Source of the DNA: Thermoplasmatales archaeon
GTDB lineage: Archaea > Thermoplasmatota > E2 > DHVEG-1
Direction of reading: 5' to 3'
Assembly: GCA_030672305.1 (NCBI GenBank)
Contig: DAOVGR010000024.1
Span: forward strand, 1 to 61,197
DNA: 61,197 nucleotides
Below are positions 2,699 to 56,394 of this stretch, one piece after another; position 1 is the stretch's first letter; every line of letters starts with the position of its first letter. Made by a program: the position numbers and the translations under genes. The notes under the pieces were generated by a model. The model was given only the letters and a program-made list of their open reading frames with translations. It searched no databases and was not told the DNA's origin.

Positions 2699-4339
2699 AT
2701 GATGAAACTTGACAAACGGATAATTTTTATTATTGCTATAGCAATTGTTTTCTGTGCCAGTTTTCAGCCAATAATTGCGGGAAGAAGTATCGAAAACAAC
2801 AATCAGGACCTAAAAGCTATCAATGAAAATTCTGCTTTACTTGTAGCATTATCTCAACTTAAACATTTGAAAAAAACTACCTATCAAATAACTGCCTCAA
2901 ATGGAATTTTGGATGACAAAGGATCTATTCTCTGTTATGTTTTTGATTTACATCCTCAGGGTTATATAGTTGTTCCAGGGTATAATACTCTTCCGCCTGT
3001 TCTTGCCTATTCTTTTACAAGTTCGTTTTCTGAAGCAGGAACACTTCTTTGTGATTTGGTGAAGGCAGATATAATTCTAAGGTTGACTCATTCTTCAGAA
3101 ATTCATGAAAAAATAATAGAAGAAAACAAAGACCTATGGAATTCCTATCTTAATTTTAATCCTTTAGTTTTGGATGATTTCTTTTCTCAGTGGCCTAAAG
3201 AAGGAGCAACCTCTTCAGAGGGATGGCTTGAGACAGAATGGCATCAAAATTCTCCATATAATGATTTTTGTCCAATGGATCTAGTAAATAGCCAACGTAG
3301 TGTTGCGGGATGTCCTTCTGTTGCTATTGCTCAAATCTTAAACTATCATCAAACAACTAACAATGTTCAGTTTAATGACAGCGATGATTACTATCATTCC
3401 TGGGGCAATTATTATTGGATTGATGATAATTTTGAAACCTATGATTTTCCTCCATTTCCACAGCTTAATTCATATCTTGACACTCTTGTCCTGCACTACC
3501 AGAATGAAGAAACTTTAACTGATGAAGACAAGGCAGCACTCACGTTTGCCTGTGGTGTTGCAGCTCAACAAGTTTATAGTTCAAGTGTATCAGGCACCTT
3601 TGGTGTAGACCAAGCATATGATGCATACCAGCGTTTTTTCTTTGATGATTGTGTATTACTAACCGATGATAATCCTGATGCTTATGAACGAGTTCAGGAA
3701 AATATTATGAATGGTCTTCCTGTACATCTTGCTGTTATAACTGAAGATGGGAAATCTGGTCATAATCTTGTAATTGATGGTTATAATGATGAGGGATATT
3801 ATCATCTTAATTTTGGTTGGGGTGGATCATATGACGGGTGGTATAAAATTCCAGAAGAACTTCCCTATGAACTAACTGTTCTAGAAGGTGTAATTGTTGA
3901 TATCATAAATGAGAATTCAGTTTCTAATCTTAATGCAGAAGGAGCTTTATATTGGCCTGATATCAATCCTGGAGCAACTGTTGAAGGAAGTTTTACATTA
4001 GAAAATGTTGGTGCACCAGGGTCAAGTATTGACTGGGAAGTAATTATTTGGCCTGAGTGGGGTGAATGGACCTTTGATCCATCTTCTGGAGAAGGTCTTA
4101 CTCCTGAAGAAGGTCCCTTAACAATCGATGTATCTGTGAATGTTCCTGATAAGAAAGATAAACATTTCAATGGATATGTTAAAGTTGTTGATGTTGACAA
4201 TAGTATTAATTCCTGCCTTGTTCATGTTTCACTTACAACACCGCGTAATAGATGGGTTAATCATCCATTGCTCTTTAATATATTTGAACATTTTCCAAAT
4301 GCTTTTCCATTGTTCAGATATATACTAGGATTTCAATAG
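2699..4339 (+). CDS. Secreted C10 (streptopain-like) cysteine peptidase with C-terminal tail
   Basis: 546 aa. A signal peptide (about 1-27) is followed by a streptopain-type propeptide (about 30-160) and a C10 papain-like domain with Cys205 in AGCPSVAIAQILNYHQ and His355 in SGHNLVIDGY, then the family's FGWGGSYDGW block. A beta domain (about 400-510; WPEWGEWTFDP) resembles those in the proteins ending at 8087, 21921 and 38735. The protein ends with TPRNR and a terminal block closely matching LFERFPNxFPLLRYLLGLQ. Two adjacent ATGs (2699, 2702) lie behind GGGGAT, so the exact start is uncertain by one codon. It is likely an extracellular protease with an autocleaved prodomain, as in SpeB. Confidence 0.92.
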   Translation: MMKLDKRIIFIIAIAIVFCASFQPIIAGRSIENNNQDLKAINENSALLVALSQLKHLKKTTYQITASNGILDDKGSILCYVFDLHPQGYIVVPGYNTLPPVLAYSFTSSFSEAGTLLCDLVKADIILRLTHSSEIHEKIIEENKDLWNSYLNFNPLVLDDFFSQWPKEGATSSEGWLETEWHQNSPYNDFCPMDLVNSQRSVAGCPSVAIAQILNYHQTTNNVQFNDSDDYYHSWGNYYWIDDNFETYDFPPFPQLNSYLDTLVLHYQNEETLTDEDKAALTFACGVAAQQVYSSSVSGTFGVDQAYDAYQRFFFDDCVLLTDDNPDAYERVQENIMNGLPVHLAVITEDGKSGHNLVIDGYNDEGYYHLNFGWGGSYDGWYKIPEELPYELTVLEGVIVDIINENSVSNLNAEGALYWPDINPGATVEGSFTLENVGAPGSSIDWEVIIWPEWGEWTFDPSSGEGLTPEEGPLTIDVSVNVPDKKDKHFNGYVKVVDVDNSINSCLVHVSLTTPRNRWVNHPLLFNIFEHFPNAFPLFRYILGFQ

Positions 4340-4380
4340 TTCAAATCTTCATCTTTTATTTTGATAATTACATTAAGTAT

Positions 4381-4404
4381 CTTAAACTTAAGAAATATTT
4401 AAAT
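4381..4404 (+). promoter_or_regulatory. Promoter of the 4458 gene: dyad plus TATA box
   Basis: A CTTAA-AC-TTAAG dyad (4381-4392) overlaps the archaeal TATA box AAGAAATATTTAAAT (4390-4404). This is a variant of the TATA box shared by the secreted genes. The leader ends in GGGAGG before the ATG at 4458. Confidence 0.7.
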
Positions 4405-4457
4405 CAAAATATTATATTATAATATTTGGAATTAAGTATATTTAAGGGAGGTAGAAT

Positions 4458-5486
4458 ATGAATAAAATTATACCAATACTTGCTATAGGAATCTTAATTC
4501 TAAGCGGAATGAGTGCTATTGCTACAATAAAAAACAAAACAGATTCTGCACCGATTATTGATGAATTAGATCAATCTCAAACTGTTATGGCAGAAAATAT
4601 TCTTATGCCTGTTGGTCAAATTCCTTATAATGAAAATCTGACAAATATTCAGGTTGCTCAATCATTTATTCCATCAAAGGAGATTCTTACAAGAGTTGAG
4701 CTTTTTATAGGAAAGAATGTTACAGCGATATATCCAATATATGTATCCATCAGGAAAGAATTAATTGAGGAAGACCTCACAATTGAAAGTGTTGAGCCTT
4801 GTGATGTTCCAACAGACGAATTAGGCTGGGTGGAAATTGATTTACCTGATATTTTGGTTACAACTGGACATACTTATTATGTTGTTGCAATAACTGAGAA
4901 TGCTACTGATAATTGGTATGGCTGGGGTGGTAACAATAACTCAGAATCTTACCCATCTGGATGTGCATGGTTTTCTTATGATGATGGTGACTCATGGACC
5001 AATGAATCTAGTTTATCAGGTTCACATAATGTTGAATCATCATTTAGTAAATACAGGTCAACAAAAATGGACGAACAAATAACTTGGGATATGTGTTTTA
5101 AAACATATGGAAGAGATAGTATTCCACCTGATGCACCAGTAATCAATGGTCCAAAATCAGCAAGGTATAATGAATCACAATCATACATTTTTATTACAAA
5201 TGATCCTGATGGAGATGATGTATTTTATCAAATCCTATGGGGAGATGGTACAAGTGAAGATTGGATCGGTCCATATAATTCAGATGAATTAATAACGGTG
5301 GATCACTCCTGGGTGGAACAGGGAATATACATAATTGTAGCAAGGGCTAAGGATGTCTATGGATATGTAAGTGAGTGGACAGAGTTTGAGGTTGAAATTC
5401 CGAGAAACAGACAATTCTATTTAAATGCATTAAGTTGGCTATTTTTAAGAGTCCCTCTGTTCAGATACATTCTAGGACTGCAGTAG
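4458..5486 (+). CDS. Secreted PKD-domain protein with C-terminal tail
   Basis: 342 aa, start fixed by GGGAGGTAGAAT directly upstream. After a signal peptide (1-23), residues about 45-215 form a beta-rich domain (VAQSFIP...RVELFIG...WVEIDLP...YYVVAITEN) of the kind found as extracellular carbohydrate-binding or jelly-roll modules. I cannot name the family. A PKD domain follows (about 225-310; GDGTSEDWIGPY, then DHSWVEQGIYIIVARAKDVYG). The end is IPRNRQ plus a shortened tail, LFLRVPLFRYILGLQ, in which the FPNAF segment of the consensus is missing. There is no catalytic signature; binding or structural role at the cell surface is inferred. Confidence 0.85.
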   Translation: MNKIIPILAIGILILSGMSAIATIKNKTDSAPIIDELDQSQTVMAENILMPVGQIPYNENLTNIQVAQSFIPSKEILTRVELFIGKNVTAIYPIYVSIRKELIEEDLTIESVEPCDVPTDELGWVEIDLPDILVTTGHTYYVVAITENATDNWYGWGGNNNSESYPSGCAWFSYDDGDSWTNESSLSGSHNVESSFSKYRSTKMDEQITWDMCFKTYGRDSIPPDAPVINGPKSARYNESQSYIFITNDPDGDDVFYQILWGDGTSEDWIGPYNSDELITVDHSWVEQGIYIIVARAKDVYGYVSEWTEFEVEIPRNRQFYLNALSWLFLRVPLFRYILGLQ

Positions 5487-6297: not shown

Positions 6298-6446
6298 TTC
6301 CGTTTTATCTTTTTTTAAATAATAAAATAATACTAGTAATTGTTTTTATTTACAGACATTAAAATTAAAATTACTAGATTTATTTAGAAAACTTTTAATT
6401 TATAAATGATATGCATAATTTCATATTTATTGGAGGAAGGAAAGAT

Positions 6447-8087
6447 ATGAATGAAAAAATTATAGGTATTTTAGTATGTATGTTGTTGATAGCATCTCCT
6501 GTAATATCTGCATCATGGACTGAAATAAATAAGACAAATAATGTAGAAATAATAAACGGAAAATCTGATTGGATAGAACTGGATAAAATTATTTCATCTG
6601 ATGGAGTGGCAAATGATGAATTTGGAAATTCAGTTTCAATTGATGGTGATTATGCAATAGTTGGTGCTTATTGTGATGATGGATGTACCGGATCAGCATA
6701 TATCTATAAAAAAGATGGTTCAACTTGGATTGAGGAAGCAAAGCTTATTCCATCAGATGTAGAATCTGGAGATTATGCTGGACTGTCTGTATCAATAAGT
6801 GGTGATTATGCAATAATAGGTGCTCCTGTTGGCGAAGCAGCCTATGTTTTCGTACGATCAGGTTCAAGTTGGACACAACAAGCAAAACTCACATCAAATG
6901 GGGGTGGAGTTCTTGACTTCTTTGGTTGGAGTGTTGCAATATCTGGTGAATATGCAATTGTTGGTGGCACGAACTATGAATATGCAAGAGGGCTTGCTTT
7001 TGTTTTTAAAAGAACAAGTACAACTTGGAATCAAGAAGCAAAATTACTTGCAACAGATGGAACAGCTGATGATAAATTTGGCTATGTTGATATAAATGAA
7101 GATATTGCTATTGTTGGAGCATATAGTGATGATAACGATAATGGAGTAAACGCAGGTGCTGCATATATTTTTAAACGTGAAACTTCAGGATATTGGTATC
7201 AGTACAGTAAACTAATTGCAAGCGTTGGGGCAACAGATGATTATTTTGGTGTTGATGTAGCAATTATTGATGATTATGCAATAATTGGGGCACTTGGAGA
7301 CGACAGTAAAAAGGGAGCAGCATATATTTTCAAATATATAGTAGGTGTTGGTTGGCAGCAGGAAGCAAAGTTGACTGCTTCAGATGGAGCAGCCGACGAT
7401 CGATTTGGTAACTCTGTTTCAATTTTCCAAAACTATGTAGCAGTAGGAGCATTTTTTGATGATTCCAGTACTGGTTCTGCATATATCTTCAAAGACAATG
7501 GTGCTAACTGGGTACAGGAAACAAAACTTACTGCTTCAGACAGTGCAACTGATGATGTTTTTGGTATTTCTGTTTCAATTGATGAAAATAATGTAATAAT
7601 TGGTGCACGTACAGATGATAACGAAAATGGAGCTGATGCAGGTGCTGCTTATTTCTTTATTAAATCAGGTGCAAAGATTTGTTGTGATGGAAACCTTGCC
7701 TGGTCTAGTGTAAAACCAAATTCGGTAGTTACTGATGATTTTCAAATAAGTAACTGTGGTGAGGAAGGTTCTTTACTTAATTGGCAGTTTGATTCTGCAC
7801 CAGACTGGGGAGTATGGGAGGTTATTCCAGATAGTGGTACAGATTTAGCTTATGGAGGAAGCGTTACAATTCAGGTAACAGTTACTGCACCACCTGATGA
7901 AAATTCAGAATTTATTGGAAATGTAAAGATGATCAATACTGATGACCCTAGTGATTATTGTGAAGTAGATGTTGTGTTAAATACACCAAAAGTTAATCCC
8001 CGATATACCAATTTCAACCTATTTAGTTGGTTTATAGAACGATTTCCTAATGCATTCCCAATTCTAAAATATCTGTTGAGACTTTAA
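6447..8087 (+). CDS. Secreted FG-GAP repeat protein with C-terminal tail
   Basis: The start is set at the ATG at 6447 because GGAGGAAGG ends seven bases upstream; the longer in-frame ATG at 6411 would place that site inside the gene. 546 aa: a signal peptide (NEKIIGILVCMLLIAS type), then about seven FG-GAP-like repeats (about 30-400) with the pattern SDG-x-x-DDxFGxSVSI-x-x-DYAIVGAY ... GAAYIFK, predicted to form a beta propeller. A beta domain (about 415-510; SAPDWGVWEVIPDSG) matches that of the C10 peptidase at 2699. The terminal block is WFIERFPNAFPILKYLLRL. FG-GAP propellers usually bind ligands or partner proteins, so an adhesin or surface role is likely. Confidence 0.88.
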   Translation: MNEKIIGILVCMLLIASPVISASWTEINKTNNVEIINGKSDWIELDKIISSDGVANDEFGNSVSIDGDYAIVGAYCDDGCTGSAYIYKKDGSTWIEEAKLIPSDVESGDYAGLSVSISGDYAIIGAPVGEAAYVFVRSGSSWTQQAKLTSNGGGVLDFFGWSVAISGEYAIVGGTNYEYARGLAFVFKRTSTTWNQEAKLLATDGTADDKFGYVDINEDIAIVGAYSDDNDNGVNAGAAYIFKRETSGYWYQYSKLIASVGATDDYFGVDVAIIDDYAIIGALGDDSKKGAAYIFKYIVGVGWQQEAKLTASDGAADDRFGNSVSIFQNYVAVGAFFDDSSTGSAYIFKDNGANWVQETKLTASDSATDDVFGISVSIDENNVIIGARTDDNENGADAGAAYFFIKSGAKICCDGNLAWSSVKPNSVVTDDFQISNCGEEGSLLNWQFDSAPDWGVWEVIPDSGTDLAYGGSVTIQVTVTAPPDENSEFIGNVKMINTDDPSDYCEVDVVLNTPKVNPRYTNFNLFSWFIERFPNAFPILKYLLRL

Positions 8088-11842: not shown

Positions 11843-13624
11843 ATGAATAAATATTATCTAATGGCAGTTGGAATAGCACTACTTCTTATATGTACAAGTT
11901 TTGTGTCATCATCTAGAAATATTTTAGAAAATGAACCTGTTAATATTAAAAATGGTATGTTATATTGTGACCACACAGGTTATGTACTGGGTTCAGGATC
12001 TAATTGTTGGCTTTATGAATTTATTTTAAATAATCCTAGTAATTTGACCTGTATTTGTGAGGGAAGTGGTGGTTTTACTTCTAGTGGAGCTTGGTCAAAT
12101 GATGGTTTTATTTATATATGCGAATATGGAACTGGTATTTTATTGAAATTAAATCCAGAAACTTGTGAATGGGAATCAATTGGTGGTGGCGGTACAAGTT
12201 TGTATGGACTTGCATTTAATCCATTTTCTGAAAAATTATATGGTAGTTCAGATAACAATTATCTCTTCAGGATTGATCCAAATACCGGTGAACAAGAACT
12301 GATAGGTGCTTTCGGAAGTGATGTCCAGTTAATGATTGGTATGGCATTTGACTCAGAAGGGACACTATATGGTTGGGACCTTGGAAATGATAAACTCTGG
12401 ACAATTGACACAATTACAGGTGACGCAGCAGAAGTCGGTGCTCTAGGTATTAATCTAAACTATGTTTGTGATGGAGACTTTTGTAAAGATGACGATATTT
12501 TGTACATTTCTGCCCCTGGTTCACCTCCAGATTATATTTACCAATTATATGAATGTGATAAAGAAACTGGAGATTGTGGTCATGTTGGTCAATTTCCTGA
12601 AGATGTTGATGTGTCAGCATTACTAATTCCATTTGATTATAATCCCGAGAATAATCCCCCATATGTTCCAAGTAATCCTAGACCGCTTAATGGAACAACT
12701 GGTGTTGCTGGTGGCAGATGGTTCACTTGGTCTGGCGGTGATCCTGATGGTGACAATGTAACTTATGATTTATATTTTGGAAATTCAACTCCTCCACCTA
12801 AGGTTATGTCCAATATGTCTAATAATGGCACGGGTTATGATCCTCCTGGCGAATGGCTAGTCAATATTACTTATTACTGGAAGGTTGTTGCATGGGATGA
12901 GCATGGTGCATCAACAGAAGGCCCTATATGGAGATTTAGACTTGCACCAAATTATCCACCATTTCCGGCTCGTGACCCTATTCCACCAGATGGAGCAAAA
13001 AATGTACCTGTCAATGCTAGTCTTTATTGGACTGGAAGTGATCCAAACGGATGGGACGTGCTTAGGTATGATGTGTACTTTGGCCCAAATCTTGATCCAC
13101 CCCTGGTTGAAATTAATCAATCAGAAAATTATTATGATCCCTATGGGGAAGGTGATATGCCTTTATTTCAGGATTTTTACTGGAGAATTGACACCCGTGA
13201 TAAGGAAGGAGAAGTAACTACTGGTCCTAATTGGACTTTTGCGACAGGGGTAAATTGTACACCACCTCCACCAGCAATAGATGGTCCAACACATGGTAGG
13301 ATAAAAATAAAATATAACTACACCTTTTATACAACAGAAGAGGGTGGAGTTATATTTATTGTTGATTGGGGTGATGAATCAACTATTGAGAGAATTTATC
13401 CTACATCACCCGATGGCCAAAGAGCAATAGCAAATCATTCTTGGGATAAAAAGGGGACATATATTATTCGTGCAAGAACCGAAGACGAATATGGTATGGT
13501 TAGCGACTGGGGCGAACTTGAAGTAACAATGCCAAGAATTAAAACAACAACATACTCATTATTACAATGGTTTTTTGAAAGATTTCAATTATTGGAGGTA
13601 TTTTTACGAATAATGAATCTATAA
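11843..13624 (+). CDS. Secreted propeller-FN3-PKD protein with degraded tail
   Basis: 593 aa. After the signal peptide (1-24), residues about 40-270 form a propeller-like domain with repeats such as LYGLAFNPFSEKLYG and LMIGMAFDSEGTLYGWD. Two FN3-like modules start near 272 and 372 (WSGGDPDGDNVTYDLYFG and WTGSDPNGWDVLRYDVYFG). A PKD domain starts near 474 (DWGDEST, NHSWDKKGTYIIRARTEDEYG). The tail begins normally (MPRIK...LLQWFFERF) but then turns into QLLEVFLRIMNL, which is encoded by what looks like the ribosome-binding site and start region of the next gene. Binding or structural role inferred. Confidence 0.87.
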   Translation: MNKYYLMAVGIALLLICTSFVSSSRNILENEPVNIKNGMLYCDHTGYVLGSGSNCWLYEFILNNPSNLTCICEGSGGFTSSGAWSNDGFIYICEYGTGILLKLNPETCEWESIGGGGTSLYGLAFNPFSEKLYGSSDNNYLFRIDPNTGEQELIGAFGSDVQLMIGMAFDSEGTLYGWDLGNDKLWTIDTITGDAAEVGALGINLNYVCDGDFCKDDDILYISAPGSPPDYIYQLYECDKETGDCGHVGQFPEDVDVSALLIPFDYNPENNPPYVPSNPRPLNGTTGVAGGRWFTWSGGDPDGDNVTYDLYFGNSTPPPKVMSNMSNNGTGYDPPGEWLVNITYYWKVVAWDEHGASTEGPIWRFRLAPNYPPFPARDPIPPDGAKNVPVNASLYWTGSDPNGWDVLRYDVYFGPNLDPPLVEINQSENYYDPYGEGDMPLFQDFYWRIDTRDKEGEVTTGPNWTFATGVNCTPPPPAIDGPTHGRIKIKYNYTFYTTEEGGVIFIVDWGDESTIERIYPTSPDGQRAIANHSWDKKGTYIIRARTEDEYGMVSDWGELEVTMPRIKTTTYSLLQWFFERFQLLEVFLRIMNL

Positions 13625-15059: not shown

Positions 15060-16505
15060 ATGATAATTAAAAACGAATTAGTTAGGAAAGGTCTTGTTCT
15101 TGTAATAATTTTACTATTTACTGGTACATTTGCCATACCATCATTGGGTGGAGCTGGCGTAGAGAAGAACTCTAATCCTCCAATGTCTGGTGGTAACACA
15201 TTATTTGTCGGCGGCTCAGGACCTGGAAACTACACCAAGATACAAGATGCAATTGATAATGCATCTGAAGGAGATACTATATTTGTGTATACAGGGACTT
15301 ATTTTGAGAATATATTATTGTGGAAATCAGTTAATTTAATTGGCGAAAATAGAAAAAATACAATTATTTTTCCAAGAAATGTTGAATTAAATGAAAATTC
15401 TACAATTTATATTTCTGTCGATAATTGTAGTATTAATGGATTTACAATAAACAATAACAATTTTGAAACTGACGTTATTGGAATTTTCATACATTCATCG
15501 GGCAATATGATTTTTGATAATTCTATTCTTAGGTTTAAATATGGTGTGTATTTAAAAGATGAAAATTTTGAACATGTTTTCACTGGAAACAATATTTCAA
15601 GAAATGAAATTTCAAATTGTACATCTGGAATTTATCTACGTGCTAATGCTGAGTATAATACAATTAATAGGAATTATATAATTGATAATTTGGAGGGAAT
15701 TATAATTTATTATTGTGAAAATAACACTATTCAAAATAATTTTGTTCACTCAAACACAGTTTATGGGATTTATATAAATATAAATTCAGATGGTAACATC
15801 GTTTCAAGAAATATATGCTCAGAAAACAGATATGGAATTCGCTTTAAGGCAGTCAGTTATAATGAGATATTTCTAAATCGACTTGAAAAAAATGAATTGG
15901 GTCTCTACTCTTGTTGTGGTTCACATCATAATATTTTATATTTTAACTCATTAATTGATAATGAAAAGAACGCAAGTGACGGTTTTTATAATTTTTGGGA
16001 CAATGGTATAGTTGGAAACTATTGGGAAGATTACAATGGGACAGATAATGATGGAGATGGAATTGGTGATACACCTTATCCTATTCCTGATGGTAATAAT
16101 GTGGATAGGTATCCATTAATGGAGCCAATTGACAATAATCCGCCAGATGGACCTGTTATAGATGGCCCACCAAGTGGAAAAGCAGGTGATGAGTATTGTT
16201 TGACAGTCCATTCTACAGATCTTGATGGTGATGATGTTTTTTATTTGATAGATTGGGGTGATGGAACAACAAGTGGCTGGCTTGGACCTTTTCCTCAATG
16301 TGAACCTGTAAGTGTATGTCATAAATTTAAGAGGGGGACTTATAATATTCGTGCAAAAGTAAAAGACATATATGGTTTTGAAAGTGATTGGTCAGAACCT
16401 TTATTTATTGAAATACCAAGAACTAGAGTAGTATATCATCCATTTCTTCTAAGGTTGTTTGAACTCTTTCCAATACTTGAAAGACTGCTTAACTTGCTAA
16501 GATAA
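15060..16505 (+). CDS. Secreted NosD-like beta-helix protein with PKD domain and tail
   Basis: 481 aa. The signal peptide is of the RKGLVLVIILLFTGTFAIPS type. Residues about 50-355 are a right-handed beta helix: FVGGSGPGNYTKIQDAIDNA opens it, PbH1 repeats follow, and it closes with NYWEDYNGTDNDGDGIGDTPYPI, a NosD hallmark. A PKD domain starts near 359 (DWGDGTTSGWLGPF, CHKFKRGTYNIRAKVKDIYG). The tail is IPRTRVVYHPFLLRLFELFPILERLLNLLR, shown here in two parts: the hinge IPRTR and the end LFELFPILERLLNLLR, lacking the PN-FP centre. Such helices often bind or cleave polysaccharides; no catalytic residues were assigned. AAGGGAG precedes the ATG. Confidence 0.88.
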   Translation: MIIKNELVRKGLVLVIILLFTGTFAIPSLGGAGVEKNSNPPMSGGNTLFVGGSGPGNYTKIQDAIDNASEGDTIFVYTGTYFENILLWKSVNLIGENRKNTIIFPRNVELNENSTIYISVDNCSINGFTINNNNFETDVIGIFIHSSGNMIFDNSILRFKYGVYLKDENFEHVFTGNNISRNEISNCTSGIYLRANAEYNTINRNYIIDNLEGIIIYYCENNTIQNNFVHSNTVYGIYININSDGNIVSRNICSENRYGIRFKAVSYNEIFLNRLEKNELGLYSCCGSHHNILYFNSLIDNEKNASDGFYNFWDNGIVGNYWEDYNGTDNDGDGIGDTPYPIPDGNNVDRYPLMEPIDNNPPDGPVIDGPPSGKAGDEYCLTVHSTDLDGDDVFYLIDWGDGTTSGWLGPFPQCEPVSVCHKFKRGTYNIRAKVKDIYGFESDWSEPLFIEIPRTRVVYHPFLLRLFELFPILERLLNLLR

Positions 16506-37643: not shown

Positions 37644-38735
37644 ATGACGAAAAATATTATTTTAAAAGAAGCATTTATCTTAATCTTTGTATCACTTATT
37701 ACAATATCATCAATTGCTGTTACAGGAAATATAAATGATTTACAAGAAAAATATGAGAAGAATTTCACTTATAGTAATGTTGGTAGCAGAGGTGACATCG
37801 TTTGGGATAATGATATGGTATATGAAGCTCCAGTGTCTGCAATGTGGGATGAAGTACATAATTACGATTTCACTGTAGCAGATGATTTCATATTTACTGA
37901 AAATACAGTATTAAATGGTGTAAACTGGGTTGGTGGTTATGAAGGACAAGATTATCAACAAGGAAATTTTGACTGGGCAATAGTCATTTATGATGATGAT
38001 GGTAGTGGAAATGCACCTGGTATAATTACAAACGTTTTAGCCTTTACACCTTCACAATACAACAAAGTCTTTCTTGAAGACGATGGATCTAGTATTTTTT
38101 ATAAATATTCTGTAGAATTACCAGAGCCTATCCACTTTCAGGCTAATACAAAATACTGGATTGCAATCTTTGGAGTTGGCACATGGAATCCAATGTCTAC
38201 AGTAGGGGTACATTTATCAATATTATTACATAGTTGTGTTTATGGTAGTAATTATATGGGTCGTCCATATTGGACAGATTCCAATTTTGATGTGTGTTTC
38301 CAGTTGATTGAAGCCAAAGCAGATTTAGATTGTGAAGGAAGTTTGATCTGGGCAAAGATAAAACCTGGTACTGTTGAAAAAGGTGAGTTTTATTTGGAGA
38401 ATATTGGCGAAGCTGAATCATTATTAGACTGGGAAGTCTCAGAGGTACCAGAGTGGGGAACATGGATATTTGAACCTGAGGATGGAGAGGATTTGACTCC
38501 TGAAGATGGGATTATAACAGTTAATGTAACAGTTATTGCACCGGATGAAAAAAATATGGATTATAGTGGACATATCACAATAATTAACACTAATGATAAT
38601 AGTGATTTAGAAATAATTGACGTATTATTATCAACACCTAGAAAAAGGACTAGTAATAACATGCTGTTCGAACATTTGATAGAACGCTTCCCAAATACAT
38701 TTCTACTGCTGCGATATTTATTTGCACTTCAGTAA
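37644..38735 (+). CDS. Secreted beta-domain protein with tail (paralogue of 20791)
   Basis: 363 aa. Signal peptide (about 1-27). The N-terminal domain (about 45-230) matches that of 20791: IVWDNDMVYEA, VADDFIF, GVNWVGGYEG, FDWAIVIYDDDGSGNAPG, KYWIAIFGVGTWNP. A beta domain follows (about 235-335; VPEWGTWIFEPEDGEDLTPE), close to the one in the C10 peptidase at 2699. Ends TPRKR plus HLIERFPNTFLLLRYLFALQ. Function unknown. Confidence 0.87.
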   Translation: MTKNIILKEAFILIFVSLITISSIAVTGNINDLQEKYEKNFTYSNVGSRGDIVWDNDMVYEAPVSAMWDEVHNYDFTVADDFIFTENTVLNGVNWVGGYEGQDYQQGNFDWAIVIYDDDGSGNAPGIITNVLAFTPSQYNKVFLEDDGSSIFYKYSVELPEPIHFQANTKYWIAIFGVGTWNPMSTVGVHLSILLHSCVYGSNYMGRPYWTDSNFDVCFQLIEAKADLDCEGSLIWAKIKPGTVEKGEFYLENIGEAESLLDWEVSEVPEWGTWIFEPEDGEDLTPEDGIITVNVTVIAPDEKNMDYSGHITIINTNDNSDLEIIDVLLSTPRKRTSNNMLFEHLIERFPNTFLLLRYLFALQ

Positions 38736-40894: not shown

Positions 40895-41301
40895 TTAAAA
40901 TCAATACATATCAATAATCTTTTTATTTAATCTTTTTAATGCAGATACTGAGTTATAGTTTGGGAATTATATCTGAAAATGCAGTTTAATTTTCAACTAG
41001 GATTTTAAAATCGTTTAATTTTGACAGGCTTGCAAATCTTTTACCTATATTACGGCAATTGTTTGGTCTTTTATAGACAAAATCAATCTCTCTCTTTTTT
41101 TTCTTGAAATTGAAGAACATAATATTAAATATTTATCATGTAATTAGAACTTAAATGTTAATTTGAAGTATTTTCTCATTAAGTTTATTTTGAGAAATAA
41201 AGAGTTACGTAACGAACAATATCTAATATCGCATTATTTAGTTTATCATAAATATTATAAAATGTTTCAGGAATTACAATTATATAAAAAGGAAGATATA
41301 G
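40895..41301 (+). other. Intergenic region with radC-tail chimeric relic
   Basis: No intact gene. It contains the relic at 40996-41076, a T-tract after it (41092-41104) and an AT-rich promoter region. The 41302 gene lacks the operator-TATA module of its relatives. Confidence 0.6.
40996..41076 (+). pseudogene. radC fragment fused in frame to a C-terminal tail remnant
   Basis: TRILKSFNFDRLANL corresponds to RadC residues NRILKSFNFDKLTNL (intact gene 56611-56655) and runs without frame change into LPILRQLFGLL-stop, the end of a secreted-protein tail. The following ACAAAATCAATCTCTCTCT also matches the 3' flank of tail genes (compare after 5486 and 21921). Confidence 0.78.
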
Positions 41302-43491
41302 ATGAAAAATAATAAAATCGATATGAATTATAATGTGATATTTATAGCTCTTATTCTAATACTGACATCATTTCCAATTTTTACAGTTGCACAGAACGTA
41401 AATGACTATGAACAAATCTCATTGACTTACTCATTTGAACAACCCATCATTGAACAAATAATGATAGGAAGTAATGTTTATACGCGTATAACTATACAAG
41501 ATCTTTCAGCATCTGGTAATTGTGGTGAACCTCGTTTACCTTCAGACGGAGCATATATACTTTTACCTCAAGGCACAATGGTAGATGATATTACCGTCAA
41601 AAGTGAAGGTAAATTATTGGGTTCAGGTTTCAATGTTGAACCTGTTGGGAAAATGATTCCAATATCAAAATCCAGCTCAATAATAATTCCGGTTCAGGAT
41701 AAAGATTTATACAGCTCAACTGAAATGTTTCCTGGAAACCTGTTTGAAGAGATCGGAATATATAGTTTTAGAGGGTATAAGATACTTGTATTGAAATTAA
41801 ATCCTGTTCAATACATTCCAGCCGATGGTGAACTTTATTTTTATAAAGAGATCAAGATTTCTGTTAATCTTACTTACGATGGAAACATAAATCATATGTT
41901 CCGTAATCTAGAAAAAGATAAAATTAAAATTATTGACAAGGTTGATAATCCTGAAATTGCTGATACCTATAATCATCCAGTAAACCCTCCTCTTGATTCA
42001 TACGATCTTCTGATTATCACTACTGACCCATTGAAAAGTGGTTTTGAAACTTTAAAAGAGTTTCATAATGAAAATGGTCTTAGTACGGTTATTAGAACAA
42101 CCACCGATATTGGAAGTAGCAACCCTGATGATGTTCGAGATTATATTTTAGATGCCTACAACAATTTACTGATAGATTTTGTAATAATTGGTGCTGATGA
42201 TGATGTTATCGCCGCAAAAGATCTCTTTGTTAGAACGGTATGGTGGTGGCCATGGTCAGAAACCGAAGAACATATGCCTTCTGATACCTATTATGCTTGC
42301 TTAGATGGGCCTTATGATAACAATGGTAATGGACTATATGGTGAACCTAATGATGGTCCTGGAGGTGGTGATGTAGATCTTGTTGCTGATGTATATGTAG
42401 GAAGAGCATCTGTTGGTAATAATGAGGAGGTCTCTAATTTTGTTGTTAAAACCATCCAATATTTATATTCTGATGATCCTTATTTGGAAGATGCCCTTAT
42501 GGCAGGAGAAATGCTAAATTCCGCTCCATTGACCTGGGGCGGTACTTATATGGATGAACTAATAGATGGTTCTAGTGCTAATGGCTATACTACCATAGGA
42601 ATACCTTCAAGTAAATATAATATCGATAAATTGTATGAAAGAGATGGATACTGGTATGTATCAGATATCATTAGCAAAATAAACAATGGCATTCACTTCA
42701 TAAATCATCTAGGGCATGCTAATTATTATTCTGATATGAAGCTAAGTACCGCACATATCAGCTCTCTTACAAATGAAAAACTTTGTTTTGTATATTCTCA
42801 GGGTTGTATGTCTGGCGGATTTGATAACGGAGATTGTATTGCAGAATATTTTACCGTAAAAACAGATAATGCTGCATTTGCAGTAATTATGAATGCTAGA
42901 TATGGATGGTATAATCCAGGTGGAACAGATAGTTCTTCACAACATTTTCATCGAGAGTTTTGGGATGCTGTTTTTGGAGAAGGGAAAACAATAATTGGTG
43001 AAGCAAATCACGATTCCAAAGAGGATAATTTATACAGGATTAATGATGAATGTATGAGATGGAGCTATTATGCATTGAATTTGTTCGGCGATCCATCAGT
43101 TGATTTTCTAAATCATTACAGCAATACGGCACCAAACACGCCAACTATGTCTGGTCCAAATAGTGGAAAACCTGGAAAGGAATATGATTATGTCCTTACC
43201 ACATTTGACGCTGAAGCAAATGATGTGTATTATTTCATCGACTGGGGTGATGGAACAGTTGAGGATTGGGATGGTCCATATTCTTCAGAAATTGAAGTTA
43301 CTTTTTCCCATACCTGGGATGAGGAAGGAACTTATTTGATTAAAGCAAAGGCAAAAGACGTCTATAATGCTGAGAGTGATTGGTATGAGTTTGAGGTAAA
43401 TATTCCTAGGTCAAAACTAATTTATCACAGTATATTATACTGGATGTTTGAACGATTACCAATACTGCGACAACTATTTAGATTTCAATAA
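41302..43491 (+). CDS. Secreted C25 (gingipain-like) peptidase with PKD domain and tail
   Basis: 729 aa. Signal peptide (about 10-31). Propeptide (about 35-215; CGEPRLPSDGAYILLPQGTMV), C25 domain from YDLLIITTDPLKSGFETL. Catalytic dyad His472 in INHLGHANYY and Cys502 in VYSQGCMSGGFDN. PKD domain about 615-695 (DWGDGTVEDWDGPY, SHTWDEEGTYLIKAKAKDVYN). Ends IPRSK plus WMFERLPILRQLFRFQ, lacking the PN-FP centre. It has GGAAG as ribosome-binding site but not the shared promoter, so it may be expressed independently of the operator-bearing genes. Confidence 0.92.
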   Translation: MKNNKIDMNYNVIFIALILILTSFPIFTVAQNVNDYEQISLTYSFEQPIIEQIMIGSNVYTRITIQDLSASGNCGEPRLPSDGAYILLPQGTMVDDITVKSEGKLLGSGFNVEPVGKMIPISKSSSIIIPVQDKDLYSSTEMFPGNLFEEIGIYSFRGYKILVLKLNPVQYIPADGELYFYKEIKISVNLTYDGNINHMFRNLEKDKIKIIDKVDNPEIADTYNHPVNPPLDSYDLLIITTDPLKSGFETLKEFHNENGLSTVIRTTTDIGSSNPDDVRDYILDAYNNLLIDFVIIGADDDVIAAKDLFVRTVWWWPWSETEEHMPSDTYYACLDGPYDNNGNGLYGEPNDGPGGGDVDLVADVYVGRASVGNNEEVSNFVVKTIQYLYSDDPYLEDALMAGEMLNSAPLTWGGTYMDELIDGSSANGYTTIGIPSSKYNIDKLYERDGYWYVSDIISKINNGIHFINHLGHANYYSDMKLSTAHISSLTNEKLCFVYSQGCMSGGFDNGDCIAEYFTVKTDNAAFAVIMNARYGWYNPGGTDSSSQHFHREFWDAVFGEGKTIIGEANHDSKEDNLYRINDECMRWSYYALNLFGDPSVDFLNHYSNTAPNTPTMSGPNSGKPGKEYDYVLTTFDAEANDVYYFIDWGDGTVEDWDGPYSSEIEVTFSHTWDEEGTYLIKAKAKDVYNAESDWYEFEVNIPRSKLIYHSILYWMFERLPILRQLFRFQ

Positions 43492-44605: not shown

Positions 44606-46264
44606 ATGAAAAAGAAAATATTAGGCGTTTTTATTTGTATGCTATTGATATACACTTCTGTTTTACCTGCGACAGGAAAATTAAATAATGAAGATTTTGT
44701 AGAAAACATAAGTACCATTCTTAATAAATATCCTCTTCCACCACCTTTATCTGTTGATATGATTCTTGAGGAATCTATCTGTCGGAGGATGTCCTGGAGA
44801 TCATTTACCAGTGAATCTGTAGCTGATGAGGAATTGTCCACAATTCTATGGGCGGCTTATGGGGTAACTGAAAATGGAAACCGTTCGATATTCAATCCAA
44901 AGGGGACTTATTCACCAATAATTTATGTTATAAGAAGTGATGCTACCTACAAATATAATGCTGAGAATCATTCTCTCTCTTTATTTAAGACTGGTAACTA
45001 TTTACATCTAGGTCAATACGAGCCTCCAATAAAATTTGGTCTTGTGTGGGATATGAATATTGAGCCTGATGAACTAATTGGAATGGGCGACATTGGAAAA
45101 CTTGCTCAAAACGTCTATTTTGATGCTAATGCTCTTGATTTAGGGGCAATTACAACTGCAATAAACGTTAATGATCTTTATGAACTTGGTCTTCCTTCAA
45201 ATGAAAAACCAGAAATCATAATGTCACTAGGTCATCCCTCCCAACCTTATGATTTTACCTATGATCCTCTTCCTGAAGATAACCTTCCACAGGTTGTAAA
45301 TAACACCTTATCTCTTGAGGAGGCAATAAATAACCGTTTAATTGAAAATAGCTGGGATAATTCTCCTTTACCACTACTCGAGCAATCTCAAGTGATGTGG
45401 TGCTCGTATGGATATTCTTACTTGTGGGATAATATTAACAATAAAAGACATAGGACTCTTCCTAGTGCCGTTGCAGTCTATCCATTCAAGATTTATGCTG
45501 CAAATCAAAATGGTGTATATCTGTATTCACACAGTACTCACTCTATTTCTGAAATCGTTTCTGGTGACAGAAGAGAGGAAATTAATAACTCCCTAGCACA
45601 GCATAAAATCGACATTCCTTCCGCATCTCTAATAATTGTTCCATGTTATAATACAAACCTTGGAGGTGCTTATAATATAAATCTTTGGTATTATGAGAAC
45701 GGCGCAATAATAAACAACATTCTACTAGAAACTGCAGCATTAACTCTAAGTTCAAATGTAATTTATGATATTTCTGATGAAGCAGATCTTCGTTCTGCAT
45801 TAGGAATTTCTTCACAAACAAATCTAAAACCATTATCTGTTGTTCCAGTCGGAAATCCCTACACAAGTCCAAATACTCCTCCAGAAGTTCCTGAAATAGA
45901 GGGGCCAAGTAGTGGAGTAGCAGGTATTTCCTATAATTTCACATTTAATTCAGTTGATCCTGATGGTGATGATGTTTATTACTATATAATCTGGGGAGAT
46001 GGTTATATTGAGAAGTGGATCGGGCCATATGTATCTGGAGAAGATTTTGAGATAGCGCACACCTATTCAAAAAAGAAAACCTACACAATTGAGGCTAAAG
46101 CAAGGGACACATTTGGTGATGAAAGCTTTATTGCAAATCATGAGATAACAATTCCAAGATTTAGAACAAGCATAGATTTTAATCAATTGATTCAACATTT
46201 ATATGAAAGATTTCCAAATATATTACCGCTAAAACGATACTTGCTTGATCTTGTCCAGTCTTAA
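44606..46264 (+). CDS. Secreted double nitroreductase (SagB-like) with PKD domain and tail
   Basis: 552 aa. Signal peptide MKKKILGVFICMLLIY. Two nitroreductase-fold halves: about 50-235 (RRMSWRSFTSESVADEELST, ILWAAYGVTENGNRS) and about 238-410 (QVMWCSYGYSYLWDN, HRTLPSAVAVYPFKIYAANQ, GVYLYSHSTHSI), the second close to SagB-type oxidoreductases. These families bind FMN and oxidise or reduce small molecules or peptide azolines, and are normally cytoplasmic. PKD domain from about 423. Ends IPRFR plus HLYERFPNILPLKRYLLDL followed by VQS. How FMN would be loaded outside the cell is unclear. Confidence 0.85.
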   Translation: MKKKILGVFICMLLIYTSVLPATGKLNNEDFVENISTILNKYPLPPPLSVDMILEESICRRMSWRSFTSESVADEELSTILWAAYGVTENGNRSIFNPKGTYSPIIYVIRSDATYKYNAENHSLSLFKTGNYLHLGQYEPPIKFGLVWDMNIEPDELIGMGDIGKLAQNVYFDANALDLGAITTAINVNDLYELGLPSNEKPEIIMSLGHPSQPYDFTYDPLPEDNLPQVVNNTLSLEEAINNRLIENSWDNSPLPLLEQSQVMWCSYGYSYLWDNINNKRHRTLPSAVAVYPFKIYAANQNGVYLYSHSTHSISEIVSGDRREEINNSLAQHKIDIPSASLIIVPCYNTNLGGAYNINLWYYENGAIINNILLETAALTLSSNVIYDISDEADLRSALGISSQTNLKPLSVVPVGNPYTSPNTPPEVPEIEGPSSGVAGISYNFTFNSVDPDGDDVYYYIIWGDGYIEKWIGPYVSGEDFEIAHTYSKKKTYTIEAKARDTFGDESFIANHEITIPRFRTSIDFNQLIQHLYERFPNILPLKRYLLDLVQS

Positions 46265-46440: not shown

Positions 46441-48390
46441 ATGAAGAAAAAAAAATTGAGTTTTATAATTATAGGTATTTTATTGATTACAATTGTCCCA
46501 ATTGAAAACGAACAGGCAATATCCACCACAAAAACTCTAACGGGAGATATATACATAGATTCCATTGAACCTATACAGGTCATAGACGACGCAGATACAC
46601 TTGTAACAAACAAAGCAACAGTTGTACGAGTGATAGTACAAAGCACATTCACAGAGGAAGTAATTTCGCCAATTAAGATAACATACGATTTTGGAACAAA
46701 AACATTTATTGAGGATGGTGTAATAGGGAATCCCTTAGTAATTGCACCTGGTACCAATACAATCTATGTTCCAGGAGGACCAGCGATTCCTGGAATACCG
46801 ACCAAATGGAATCCTAATGGTTTTTTAAAATGGACAAACACAGGATATGATGGTTTACTAGAAGCTGAGCTAGACCCAGATAATAATTTAGAGGAAACTG
46901 ATGAAACAAATAATGAGAAATTACACAGCCCTATTAGAGTAGCTAATTCACCAATGGTTAAAGTTCTCTACGTACCAGTAGCATTTCCAGGTGATGAGGA
47001 CTGGACGGTTTCTAGTACAACGATATATAAGCAAAAAAAGTTCATGCTTGAGACCTATCCACTTGCAGAAACAGATCTCAACTTTCATCAAGGACCTCTT
47101 TGGAGATTCAGCGTAAGTCCGTCAGGGTTAGGAGATGTGTTTACAAACTCGTTATTTGAGTTAGTTGCATATCCAATAGCATGCTCGTCACGCATCATGG
47201 GTTACAATCGGGTATTAATCTTTACTGATTTATTATTAGGCGGTGGTGTGGCAATTGGAATTCTTAGAACCCCAGAAATTCGAGAACCAGTTGTAATATC
47301 AAGATATTCAATTGATGATGATCTTGTCGCTCATGAATTAGGGCATACCTACTATCTATGGCATCCACATGACCTTGGACCCGCTGTATTTACTGCTGAA
47401 AGTTACAATGTAGAAGAGCAAGAATATGGAGAAACCATGAATACTTTCATGAGCTATAGAAACGCTCCTACATGGATAGACAAAGGAAGATATGATAATA
47501 ATCCAAAAATGCAACTTCTGCCAGGAACATATCACTATCCCGGTGACCCGGAGATAGGATATGATCCAAAAGATGTATATTTTTCAGCATCAACCTGGTC
47601 ATGGAATCTTATGGACCAGTTAACTGAGGATCCACCAACTTATTCTTGCATAATGGTAAACGGATTATTACGAGATGATGGAACTGTAACATTAAATCAC
47701 AGCTGGTACAAAATAGAAGCTGTACCTGATGTACCACAACAAATAATTGGAGGGACACAAAACGAAGAACAATATTTTATACTGTTTCTAAATGATAACC
47801 AACAAATAATCAGTACATTCCCATTCAAAGCATCATTCAACTATGTTACACATAATGACAAAACAGATGAACTGGAAGATGCAGTGACTGATACTGTCCC
47901 ATTTATTTTCAATATACAAGAAATAGAAGGAACCCGTAATATACAAATACAAAATGCAGACGGGCTGGTTCTAGCAGAGCGGGAAGTAACACATAACTCA
48001 CCAACAGTGCAGGTAACACATCCGAATGGTGGAGAAGAATTCAAAGTTGGTGATATAATCAATATTGAATGGGATGGTCATGATCAAGACCAAGACACAC
48101 TAAGATACACTTTAGCCTTTAGTAATGATAGTGGTGAAAATTGGATTCCAATGGCATTTGATATAAAAGAAACGTCATTTGTATGGAACACCTTTGATCA
48201 AAGTGAAGGTGAATATCTAATCAAGGTTATCGCGAGTGATGGAGTCAATGTTGGTGAAGATATCTCAGATGGGTCATTCACCTTACCAAGAACCAAAGTC
48301 TCATTCAGTTCCTTCTGGTTTAGGTTTTTAGAGCGATTACCAAATATACTTCCGCGAATACGATATTTATTGGGACTTGTTTATTCTTAA
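46441..48390 (+). CDS. Secreted zincin metallopeptidase-like protein with tail
   Basis: 649 aa. Signal peptide (about 1-25). A CARDB-like beta domain (about 40-165; LEAELDPDNNLEETDETNNEK) precedes a zincin domain with HELGHTYYLWHPHD: His298, Glu299, His302 and His308 (HExxHxxxxxH) and a likely Met-turn at MNTFMSYR. A beta domain starting near residue 519 (VQVTHPNGGEEFKVGDIINI) resembles the KRE9/KNH-like modules of secreted proteases. Ends LPRTK plus FLERLPNILPRIRYLLGL and VYS. An extracellular metalloprotease is likely. Of the tail-bearing enzymes it is the only metal-dependent one. Confidence 0.87.
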   Translation: MKKKKLSFIIIGILLITIVPIENEQAISTTKTLTGDIYIDSIEPIQVIDDADTLVTNKATVVRVIVQSTFTEEVISPIKITYDFGTKTFIEDGVIGNPLVIAPGTNTIYVPGGPAIPGIPTKWNPNGFLKWTNTGYDGLLEAELDPDNNLEETDETNNEKLHSPIRVANSPMVKVLYVPVAFPGDEDWTVSSTTIYKQKKFMLETYPLAETDLNFHQGPLWRFSVSPSGLGDVFTNSLFELVAYPIACSSRIMGYNRVLIFTDLLLGGGVAIGILRTPEIREPVVISRYSIDDDLVAHELGHTYYLWHPHDLGPAVFTAESYNVEEQEYGETMNTFMSYRNAPTWIDKGRYDNNPKMQLLPGTYHYPGDPEIGYDPKDVYFSASTWSWNLMDQLTEDPPTYSCIMVNGLLRDDGTVTLNHSWYKIEAVPDVPQQIIGGTQNEEQYFILFLNDNQQIISTFPFKASFNYVTHNDKTDELEDAVTDTVPFIFNIQEIEGTRNIQIQNADGLVLAEREVTHNSPTVQVTHPNGGEEFKVGDIINIEWDGHDQDQDTLRYTLAFSNDSGENWIPMAFDIKETSFVWNTFDQSEGEYLIKVIASDGVNVGEDISDGSFTLPRTKVSFSSFWFRFLERLPNILPRIRYLLGLVYS

Positions 48391-54910: not shown

Positions 54911-54923
54911 AAAAAATATTATA

Positions 54924-54936
54924 AGAAATATTTAAA
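54924..54936 (+). promoter_or_regulatory. TATA box of the 54976 gene
   Basis: AGAAATATTTAAA, 15 bases after the pseudocaspase stop; no TTAAC dyad. Confidence 0.6.
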
Positions 54937-54975
54937 GAATATATTGTATTACTATATTACTTGGGAGGAAAAAAT

Positions 54976-56394
54976 ATGAAGAAGTTAGTATTTGTAATCA
55001 TAGTTTGTATTTTGTTAACAATGACTTCTTTTTCTGTTGTTGTAACTAGTAAGGAAAGTAAGATTGAAAAACAATATGAAAATATCCCGGCGTTAGATGA
55101 TTATATAAAACTTTCAAAGCCAGTTTATGTAATTGTTAAGTTTTTTGATAATGTTACAAATAACTGTACAATTTCTTTTGATGTAACACAATACGTTTCA
55201 AAACCTCCTGATTCTGATAAGCGTCCTAATCAATTTGTTTCCATGATTTCATTTACCCACTATTATACAATATTAACAGATACCTGGGATCAGGAGGTTG
55301 CTAGATGGCAAAAAACACTTCCAGATGAAGGGGATAAAAGCTCTGTTGGGTTTTTATTCAAGGGTTATTTGTATGATGTAAATTATAGTATAAATCCTGC
55401 TAATGTTACTGATGATTTTCCTCCAGATTTAGATCCCAGATATCTACAGGACGCAGCAATGTATGACATATACAGCAATGAAATCCAAAATGCTGCACAG
55501 GCTGCTGTCGAAAATGAAACAAACCTATACTGGAAGGCTCGTAATATTAGTGAATATGTACAAGATGTGCTTTACCATTACAATGATGGTACCTGGGATA
55601 ATGCAACAATTACCCTTTCAAATGGCCATGGTTCTTGCTCTGAGTATTCATGGCTTTTTATTGCACTTTGTAGAGCATCAGGTGTTCCTGCAAGGTATGT
55701 TGGCAGCACTTGGTATAAAGAATATGAACCTCTTCCATATCTTGATCAAAACTTTCACAGATGGCCTCAGGTATATCTTCCCCCTTATGGTTGGGTTCCA
55801 GTTGACCCGAACCTTTCTGATAAGAATGGTACACATGATTACCATAAATATTTTGGAAAAATAGAAAGTAATTTTTTGGTAACACAAATTTGTGGTGGAC
55901 CATCAAGATACCTAGAATGGAATTATAATAGTAATAGGGTTATTAATCCAGAACCTAATGAGGGTGAGGTCCTAAGAAATAGATGGGGAAGATGGCTTAT
56001 GTATAAAATAATGTTTCCAATAACACCATGGACGCCAATAGGACCAATAGAGGGAAAGGCAAATAAAAATTATGAATATAAAACATCAACCTATGATAAT
56101 TCTGATAGCAACATATGGTACTGGTGGGATTGGGGTGATGGGACAAACAGTGGATGGATTGGCCCCTATGAATCAAATGAGACCTGTGAGGCGTTACATG
56201 CATGGAAAACTGATGGTGATTATAAAATAAAGGTAAAGGCAAAAAATAGGAATGGTTGGGAAAGTGATTGGTCTGAACCATTACATGTATCAATTCCTAG
56301 GAATAGGTTATTAGCCAATTCATTGTTCTTGCGGTTGTTTGAACGTTTTCTTAATATGTTTCCAATAGTTAAGTATCTTTTGGGAACTCCTTAA
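54976..56394 (+). CDS. Secreted transglutaminase-like cysteine enzyme with PKD domain and tail
   Basis: 472 aa from ATG 54976; a TTG at 54961 lies in the GGGAGG site and is rejected. Signal peptide (about 1-24). Transglutaminase core about 195-285 with the triad Cys221 (GHGSCSEYSWLF), His261 (NFHRWPQVYLP) and Asp277 (VPVDPN). Bacterial and archaeal members are mostly proteases or amidases. PKD domain from about 350 (DWGDGTNSGWIGPY, LHAWKTDGDYKIKVKAKN). Ends IPRNR plus LRLFERFLNMFPIVKYLLGT and P. The stop is followed directly by a dispersed repeat copy. Confidence 0.9.
   Translation: MKKLVFVIIVCILLTMTSFSVVVTSKESKIEKQYENIPALDDYIKLSKPVYVIVKFFDNVTNNCTISFDVTQYVSKPPDSDKRPNQFVSMISFTHYYTILTDTWDQEVARWQKTLPDEGDKSSVGFLFKGYLYDVNYSINPANVTDDFPPDLDPRYLQDAAMYDIYSNEIQNAAQAAVENETNLYWKARNISEYVQDVLYHYNDGTWDNATITLSNGHGSCSEYSWLFIALCRASGVPARYVGSTWYKEYEPLPYLDQNFHRWPQVYLPPYGWVPVDPNLSDKNGTHDYHKYFGKIESNFLVTQICGGPSRYLEWNYNSNRVINPEPNEGEVLRNRWGRWLMYKIMFPITPWTPIGPIEGKANKNYEYKTSTYDNSDSNIWYWWDWGDGTNSGWIGPYESNETCEALHAWKTDGDYKIKVKAKNRNGWESDWSEPLHVSIPRNRLLANSLFLRLFERFLNMFPIVKYLLGTP

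Follow-up and report, generated by a model that had tools for sequence, protein, structure and literature searches.

A short C-terminal tail shared by many predicted-exported proteins of a Thermoplasmatota archaeon is a candidate undescribed sorting tag

Why do fifteen proteins with unrelated bodies, encoded close together on one archaeal contig, end in nearly the same short sequence? The locus is a window of 61,197 nucleotides (nt), the whole stretch of DNA that was analysed, from contig DAOVGR010000024.1 of a Thermoplasmatales archaeon, and an initial annotation made from the letters alone had proposed the shared ending, referred to here as the tail, as a candidate sorting or anchoring signal. 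The reading that we favor, with a probability of about 0.43, is that the tail is a ~33-residue module that would dock predicted-exported proteins non-covalently onto one shared, putative partner in the cell envelope.

A hinge of the form [ITML]-P-[RKN] and a block resembling LFERFPNxFPLLRYLLGLQ stand at the C-terminus of 15/15 window proteins, with a total tail length of 29-37 residues. All of the 15 stop positions given in the initial annotation are correct, and each of these proteins carries the tail. The full terminal block is present in 11/15, which form a long class that is also found elsewhere in the genome, while 4/15 (the proteins ending at 5486, 13624, 16505, and 43491) form a short class that lacks the four-residue N-x-F-P piece. 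Short-class tails, of the form ...WFLERFPMLERLLNLLR, are common elsewhere in the window's genome. Termination in Gly-Leu-Gln, part of the original description, is not general, with GL, GF, LLR, and LIK ends also occurring. Regular-expression counts of long and short tails were mutually inconsistent and were left unused. The hosts and their tails are listed below, with lengths in amino acids (aa), together with one open reading frame (ORF) that has a tail and no host.

2699..4339 (+), host of 546 aa: signal peptide, Inhibitor_I69, Peptidase_C10, PapD-like last domain, tail; tail 4238..4339 (+), long class, 33 aa + stop, structure modelled
4458..5486 (+), host of 342 aa: signal peptide, PKD-like last domain by eye (no Pfam match), tail; tail 5397..5486 (+), short class, 29 aa + stop
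6411..8087 (+), host of 558 aa: signal peptide, FG-GAP_2 repeats, PapD-like last domain, tail; tail 7983..8087 (+), long class, 34 aa + stop
11843..13624 (+), host of 593 aa: DUF4394, PKD, tail; tail 13529..13624 (+), short class, 31 aa + stop
15060..16505 (+), host of 481 aa: NosD/beta-helix, PKD (just below cut-off), tail; tail 16413..16505 (+), short class, 30 aa + stop
20791..21921 (+), host of 376 aa: no Pfam match, PapD-like last domain, tail; tail 21823..21921 (+), long class, 32 aa + stop
22589..23806 (+), host of 405 aa: Peptidase_C10, PKD, tail, last 138 aa modelled; tail 23699..23806 (+), long class, 35 aa + stop, structure modelled
25755..27122 (+), host of 455 aa: C45-like (below cut-off), tail; tail 27021..27122 (+), long class, hinge IPN, 33 aa + stop
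28419..29813 (+), host of 464 aa: PKD, tail; tail 29706..29813 (+), long class, 35 aa + stop
31965..33974 (+), host of 669 aa: PKD_4, tail; tail 33876..33974 (+), long class, 32 aa + stop
37644..38735 (+), host of 363 aa: DUF7901 (just over cut-off), PapD-like last domain, tail; tail 38634..38735 (+), long class, 33 aa + stop
41302..43491 (+), host of 729 aa: Propeptide_C25, Peptidase_C25, PKD, tail; tail 43402..43491 (+), short class, 29 aa + stop
44606..46264 (+), host of 552 aa: nitroreductase (SagB-like below cut-off), PKD (just below cut-off), tail; tail 46151..46264 (+), long class, 37 aa + stop
46441..48390 (+), host of 649 aa: no Pfam match, tail; tail 48283..48390 (+), long class, 35 aa + stop
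54961..56394 (+), host of 477 aa: Transglut_core, PKD, tail; tail 56293..56394 (+), long class, 33 aa + stop
41008..41076 (+), probable relic of a 16th tail (KSFNFDRLANLLPILRQLFGLL-stop): 28-aa ORF without host gene, profile match E 0.009

The profile search and copy count that the initial annotation had suggested as a check extended the tail far beyond these 15 copies. In the window's genome (2.81 Mb, 88% complete), a profile built from the 15 window tails (A1) matched at least 138 places at E<=1 and at least 118 at E<=1e-3, and a broader profile matched at least 130 at E<=1e-3. De-duplication of the matches in the fetched stretches of this genome left 125 distinct ORF ends, 118 of them at E<=1e-3, and 109/118 of these stronger matches lie on ORFs of at least 100 aa. 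The match lies no more than 16 residues from the stop codon in 125/125 distinct ORFs. At E<=1e-3 the A1 profile matched 0/14,639 shuffled and 0/14,639 reversed ORFs. Tail fragments without a host, in ORFs of ~28-68 residues, occur in the window (41008-41076, +) and at L185, L193, L209, L216, and L225; they are probable relics or frameshifted genes, with L209 situated near a contig end.

Most of the proteins that carry the tail appear to be exported. A crude signal-peptide rule was passed by 85 of the 92 tailed proteins that are at least 200 aa long and have an uncut start, compared with 95/205 untailed ORFs from the window and its relatives' loci (Fisher p 1.5e-15), and six of the seven that failed look signal-peptide-like by eye. 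In the relatives' loci, 81/92 tailed proteins passed. A further membrane-like 19-mer was present in 0/92 tailed proteins vs 42/205 untailed ORFs, and a lipobox-like motif in 1/92. Export does not imply tagging, since untailed proteins with signal-peptide-like starts, as judged by eye, are also found in the window, at 17843-20251 (C25), 51026-54910 (weakly caspase-like), and 43646-44566 (caspase-like, below cut-off).

Of the 92 hosts with an uncut start, 88 were scanned against Pfam. The 41 families returned, some of them from overlapping models, bear out the earlier claim that the tail is a module on differing bodies. The 25 families listed of these 41 include PKD (36 hosts), beta-propellers, NosD/beta-helix, laminin-G, peptidases C1, C10, C25, and M14, nitroreductase, cyclophilin, and a peptidylarginine deiminase-like family. 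Within the window, several of the bodies named in the initial annotation were backed by Pfam: C10 (two proteins), C25, nitroreductase (SagB-like below cut-off), transglutaminase, and, for the propeller and beta-helix bodies, FG-GAP and NosD. The C45-like assignment is weak, with a match below the NCBIfam cut-off, and the C39-like, zincin, and FN3 assignments found no supporting match at the thresholds used; C39_2 appears solely below its cut-off, within a C10 protein. At least two different last domains precede the tail, PKD (alignment A4) and a PapD-like domain (alignment A5), and other ends occur too. The possibility that the tail is part of the PKD domain was therefore rejected. The PapD-like domain (Gly-SLLDW...PxWGxWTFTP...) has no Pfam name in these proteins; in the window it lies directly before the tail at 3923-4237, 7671-7982, 21505-21822, and 38319-38633, and it precedes the tail in many hosts (A5).

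The tail is largely confined to one archaeal family. In 389 sampled Thermoplasmatota genomes, tails at E<=1e-4 were found in 37/45 genomes of the window's own family and in 1/344 others, and the A1, A3, and A7 profiles combined gave at least one match in 40/45 family genomes, A7 having been applied to 17 of these genomes at E<=0.01. The tail was found in 18/23 genera. Counts per genome from these first-look searches are lower bounds, and some family genomes (G014, G016, G019, and G023) gave one or two tails only. Seven genomes from other families of the same order had none (0/7). When A7 was run on 12 genomes from outside the family, ten gave no match, one (G043) gave a single short match that is not tail-like, and the one outsider of the 344, G237 from the same class, gave three weak matches, of which two were read and both look tail-like. 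These divergent G237 ends, from another family of the class (L290 and L301: FLENYPDLFLILRFLLGM; LLNNYPNLFPLLQRFLQV), hint at an origin of the tag that may predate the family.

A pattern scan of 84,980 bacteria and archaea, one genome per species, confirmed 92 loci, of which 80 were kept. The titles of 76/80 are Thermoplasmatales, Thermoplasmata, or Thermoplasmatota, and three have other archaeal titles. The remaining locus, L128, holds a tail in the Thermoplasmatota style, although the 4.5 kb contig on which it lies has the title Candidatus Parcubacteria; misbinning is the probable cause, or else transfer. Among the tail-bearing genomes are SG8-52-3 and SM1-50, which the accessible part of a genome paper lists as Thermoprofundales (MBG-D) (PMC6461988); by coordinates they correspond to G001, a member of the window's genus, and G013. 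Because of these relatives, the window most likely derives from an MBG-D archaeon, and the tail-bearing family most likely consists of Thermoprofundales/MBG-D kin. Protein database searches with the tail region returned 4 and 1 proteins, the window's own included, by an exact-word method that gives no measure of spread.

Within the family, the tails of many proteins change together, lineage by lineage. In two selected alignments (A3, 40 rows; A7, 32 rows), conservation at the P, E, and F-P positions is complete or exceeds 90%. Around this core each genus has its own flavor, as consensus by eye: IPRTRAT...WFLERFPMLERLLNLLR alongside the long class in the window's genome, INRPILNFLQQHPNLFPILRQLLLKL in G003, PCSYNIPLQWFWERLFQRFPNAFPLLRHLMGY in G013, and NTFFQWFLQQFPNSFPILRFVLGL in G021. 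The hinge of the window's genome has the form P-[RK]-x-[RK], with a basic residue at P+1 in 99/108 recognized hinges among 118 tails, and this basic character is lost in some other genera (MPCSY, MPLSF, MPYSS), with many such tails in g12 and g3. For 132 tails sampled from the 233 of ten genomes, the difference between same-genus and different-genus pairs amounted to an effect of 0.96 for tails and 0.07 for adjoining domains over all pairs, and of 0.93 for tails vs 0.35 for domains when the pairs had homologous domains. The nearest neighbor belonged to the same genus in 0.81 of cases for tails, 0.55 for domains, and 0.23 after permutation. Tails from one genus on unrelated domains had a score of 0.567, compared with 0.388 for the 28 cross-genus pairs of tails on closely related domains. 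Such joint change is what a shared recognition partner would be expected to produce, and copying of tail DNA could also produce it.

The tail is conserved at the protein level. Among tails of the window's genome, 13-71% of pairs, according to the column, use different codons for the same residue, and the nearest DNA identity over the last 108 nt has a median of 0.66 and a maximum of 0.82. On this variation a DNA repeat in place of a protein module was rejected, with the reservation of a proline codon bias described below.

Structure prediction with AlphaFold2 suggests what kind of module this may be. For the last 138 residues of the protein ending at 23806 (70 aligned sequences), the PKD domain is modelled as a sandwich with a predicted local distance difference test (pLDDT) score of about 97. 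The tail follows as a helix at 114-123, a break at Phe-Pro-Asn, and a second helix at 127-134, and its ten-residue blocks have mean pLDDT values of 74, 85, and 83. A second model, of a host whose last domain is PapD-like by Foldseek, again predicts two helices, at 115-123 and 125-134. Prediction thus gives the tail two short helices with a break close to the conserved Phe-Pro. Because these predicted helices are short, a hydrophobic-moment test over 11 residues was preferred to a fixed 18-residue window, in which moments were moderately above those of shuffled tails (mean z 0.72). The 11-residue test used Eisenberg's line for surface helices. At least one 11-mer lies above that line in 207/233 tails from the ten genomes vs 40% of shuffled tails, and in 6/233 pieces of the neighboring domain. 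The best 19-residue hydropathy of the tails has a mean of 0.82 and a maximum of 1.37, with 0/92 reaching 1.6. The tail is amphipathic and not transmembrane, so that the amphipathic helix with an FP kink named in the initial annotation is recovered both in the computed moments and in the break near Phe-Pro in the models.

By sequence comparison, the tail lies outside any described family in the Pfam, NCBIfam, and PDB sequence collections searched, and it may accordingly be an undescribed kind of sorting tag. Curated sorting-signal models of the PGF-CTERM type matched 0/40 tails at E<=1 (with HMMER filters dropping most matches above 0.1), Pfam and NCBIfam gave weak matches to unrelated families only, each with 1-2 of the 40 tails, and PDB sequences gave one weak match (E 0.65). 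A known sorting signal was thus rejected as the identity of the tail. Two or more K/R in the last 8 residues occur in 43/233 tails, and a basic end cluster of the PGF-CTERM type is not a feature of the set. Lacking a membrane helix and any family match in NCBIfam or Pfam, the tail is indeed not a PGF-CTERM or PEF-CTERM signal, as had been proposed. Literature searches for the motif strings, archaeal C-terminal sorting signals with PKD, archaeosortase with Thermoplasmatota, and MBG-D with gingipain, from whose scope most subscription papers and preprints fell, found no description of the tail, in keeping with its proposed novelty. The accessible parts of an MBG-D genome paper (PMC6461988) and of a sediment peptidase paper (PMC6752024) treat C25 and other peptidases and signal peptides, and do not mention the tail.

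Several known systems resemble the tail in part. Like PGF-CTERM, the substrate tag of ArtA, it is a short C-terminal tag on exported archaeal proteins, but it has no membrane helix and no NCBIfam match, and archaeosortase number shows no rank correlation with tail number. The classic system exists alongside the tail in the window's genome, which encodes an ArtA-like archaeosortase (L228:3545-4474, on G000:C81; TIGR04125, 113 bits, cut-off 75) and has just one PGF-CTERM match that exceeds its cut-off (G000:C19:33663-33740). LPXTG, PGF-CTERM, GlyGly-CTERM, and MYXO-CTERM likewise each place one tag on many proteins per genome. The tags of sortase, archaeosortase, rhombosortase, and myxosortase are tripartite, with a hydrophobic or transmembrane region followed by basic residues, according to the accessible part of PMC11980579, and the tail lacks that region. 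The C-terminal domains of the Type IX secretion system (T9SS) also sit on C25-type peptidases and many other cargos. Those domains are described as immunoglobulin-like beta-sandwiches in the accessible text of PMC11285876, whereas the tail is a ~33-residue predicted helix pair, with two helices in both models and no beta-sandwich. Escherichia coli PBP5, a soluble secreted enzyme, is held at the membrane by a C-terminal 18-residue amphipathic helix (PMC2909392, accessible part). The tail resembles it, by prediction only, as a short C-terminal amphipathic helix on a Sec-exported soluble protein, and differs in occurring on more than 100 proteins with a conserved sequence, two predicted helices, and a Phe-Pro break. 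Dockerins, which are longer, bind calcium, and attach to cohesin scaffolds, offer a further parallel as a common docking module on many secreted enzymes, while the tail has ~33 residues and no Pfam match.

In the docking model that we favor, the body would be exported by Sec and fold outside the cell, the hinge would let the helix pair reach back, and the conserved Glu and Phe-Pro could be read by a lineage-specific receptor, either an S-layer protein or a membrane-proximal protein, so that the enzyme would stay at the cell surface rather than diffuse away. The conserved P, E, and F-P together with the genus consensus favor a protein partner. A broader proposal, which we hold tentatively, is that the tail represents an undescribed class of sorting tag, a helix-Pro-helix tail whose lineage-specific envelope receptor would co-evolve with all tails and keep a set of extracellular digestive enzymes at the surface.

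A number of observations weigh against docking. No partner was found for the tail. Only 76/118 tails of the window's genome contain the core E[RQKH][FYL]P exactly, a looser conservation than in the selected alignments, and this lowers our confidence slightly. Tail confidence in the second model is low (pLDDT 53-59, from 22 sequences only), and amphipathicity is equally compatible with a lipid surface. Five of the 45 family genomes (G011, G020, G022, G024, and G032) have no tail match and still have C25 enzymes. The adjoining domains also cluster partly by genus (nearest neighbor 0.55-0.57 vs about 0.22 permuted), and four of the ten genomes in the genus comparison were sampled through a sequence pattern; without these, in ten subsamples of profile-fetched tails, the effect was 0.78 for tails vs 0.29 for domains, with same-genus nearest neighbors at 0.72 vs 0.57. 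Instead of a receptor, the copying of tail DNA from gene to gene could be the cause of tail clustering by genus. The proline of ERFP is encoded by CCA in 71/76 tails vs 128/262 prolines in 8 window genes, a bias that may reflect common descent by copying or a constraint at the nucleic-acid level.

The main rival to docking, itself unlikely, is an in-plane anchor like that of PBP5, with the helix pair lying in the outer leaflet of the cytoplasmic membrane and no protein partner. The surface-seeking character of 207/233 tails, the positive hinge of the window's genome, the lack of another anchor in the hosts (0/92 with membrane segments, 1/92 lipobox-like), and, by analogy, the precedent of a secreted enzyme held by an amphipathic helix (PMC2909392, accessible part) would all suit such an anchor. 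For lipid binding, however, amphipathicity would suffice, and the conserved P, E, and F-P and the genus-specific consensus would be unneeded; an acidic residue lies within the last 24 in 214/233 tails, and some other genera have lost the basic hinge. We consider it improbable that the tail is a processed sorting signal, cut by a dedicated sortase- or archaeosortase-like enzyme that links the body to the envelope. This account fits the many-to-one pattern, the C-terminal position, the signal peptides on the same proteins, the resemblance of the P-[RK]-x-[RK] hinge to a basic cleavage site, and the presence of C25 peptidases, to which the T9SS sortase PorU belongs (with PorU itself matched below cut-off only). 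It is at odds with the absence of a tripartite structure, with 0/92 membrane helices, and with the genomic distribution of candidate enzymes. Sortase (PF04203) was found in 0/45 family genomes. Archaeosortase is present in 39/45, including 4 of the 5 tail-less ones, rhomboid in 39/45 (one copy each), including 5 of 5, and CPBP in 40/45 (1-7 copies), including 4 of 5, while the tail-rich G002 (64% complete) has no archaeosortase; absences in incomplete genomes are weak evidence. Copy number showed no rank correlation with tail number (Spearman -0.04 for archaeosortase, 0.17 for rhomboid, and -0.20 for CPBP, all p above 0.15), with rhomboid and CPBP counted at the family level and enzyme subtypes pooled. 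None of these four enzymes tracks the tail, and the earlier suggestion of a dedicated processing enzyme or co-occurring transpeptidase thus found no counterpart among the known C-terminal-tag enzyme classes. Universal cleavage at a basic hinge is similarly weakened, because the basic hinge is not kept in some genera.

There is a slim chance that the tails instead pair with one another as helix bundles and gather the enzymes into extracellular complexes. An amphipathic predicted helix pair and common tails on many proteins per genome are compatible with such cargo-cargo assembly, and a shared interface would maintain a genus consensus; no direct evidence for it emerged, nor did a scaffold, in searches not aimed at one. 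Passive hitch-hiking, in which the tail spreads by DNA copying at 3' ends (duplication or gene conversion) with little function, is very improbable. It could explain the relic-like tails without hosts (window 41008-41076; L185, L216, and L225) and the proline codon bias, but not the protein-level conservation indicated by differing codons and low DNA identity, nor the retention of the tail across 18/23 genera.

MBG-D archaea are widespread in sediments and have been studied for extracellular protein degradation (PMC6461988, accessible part). If the docking model is correct, the tail would serve as a surface tag used across the whole genome, placed at the C-terminus and lacking both a transmembrane segment and a folded domain. 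It would be present on about 4-5% of genes (assuming some 2,700 genes) and would point to a new receptor or anchoring route. A tag on more than 100 proteins would also make it possible to list the cell-surface proteins of an uncultured lineage from sequence.

Some minor observations concern the surroundings of these genes. A scan around the relic tail at 41008-41076 gave one terminator-like site, and promoter-like sites there were at chance level. The ArtA-like gene (L228:3545-4474) lies beside genes that look, by eye, like those of a respiratory complex. Among the C25 proteins inspected in tail-less kin, the chain often stops with the catalytic domain (...GDPSLKIGGY) or with another beta domain. 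A second common C-terminal end (...GFALGPIVIVKQ / GFVFGMFVIGIK) is found on the untailed C25 protein and on other secreted proteins, those of tail-less relatives included; it occurs in the window at 17843-20251 and 16745-17683, and at L241, L254, and L255.

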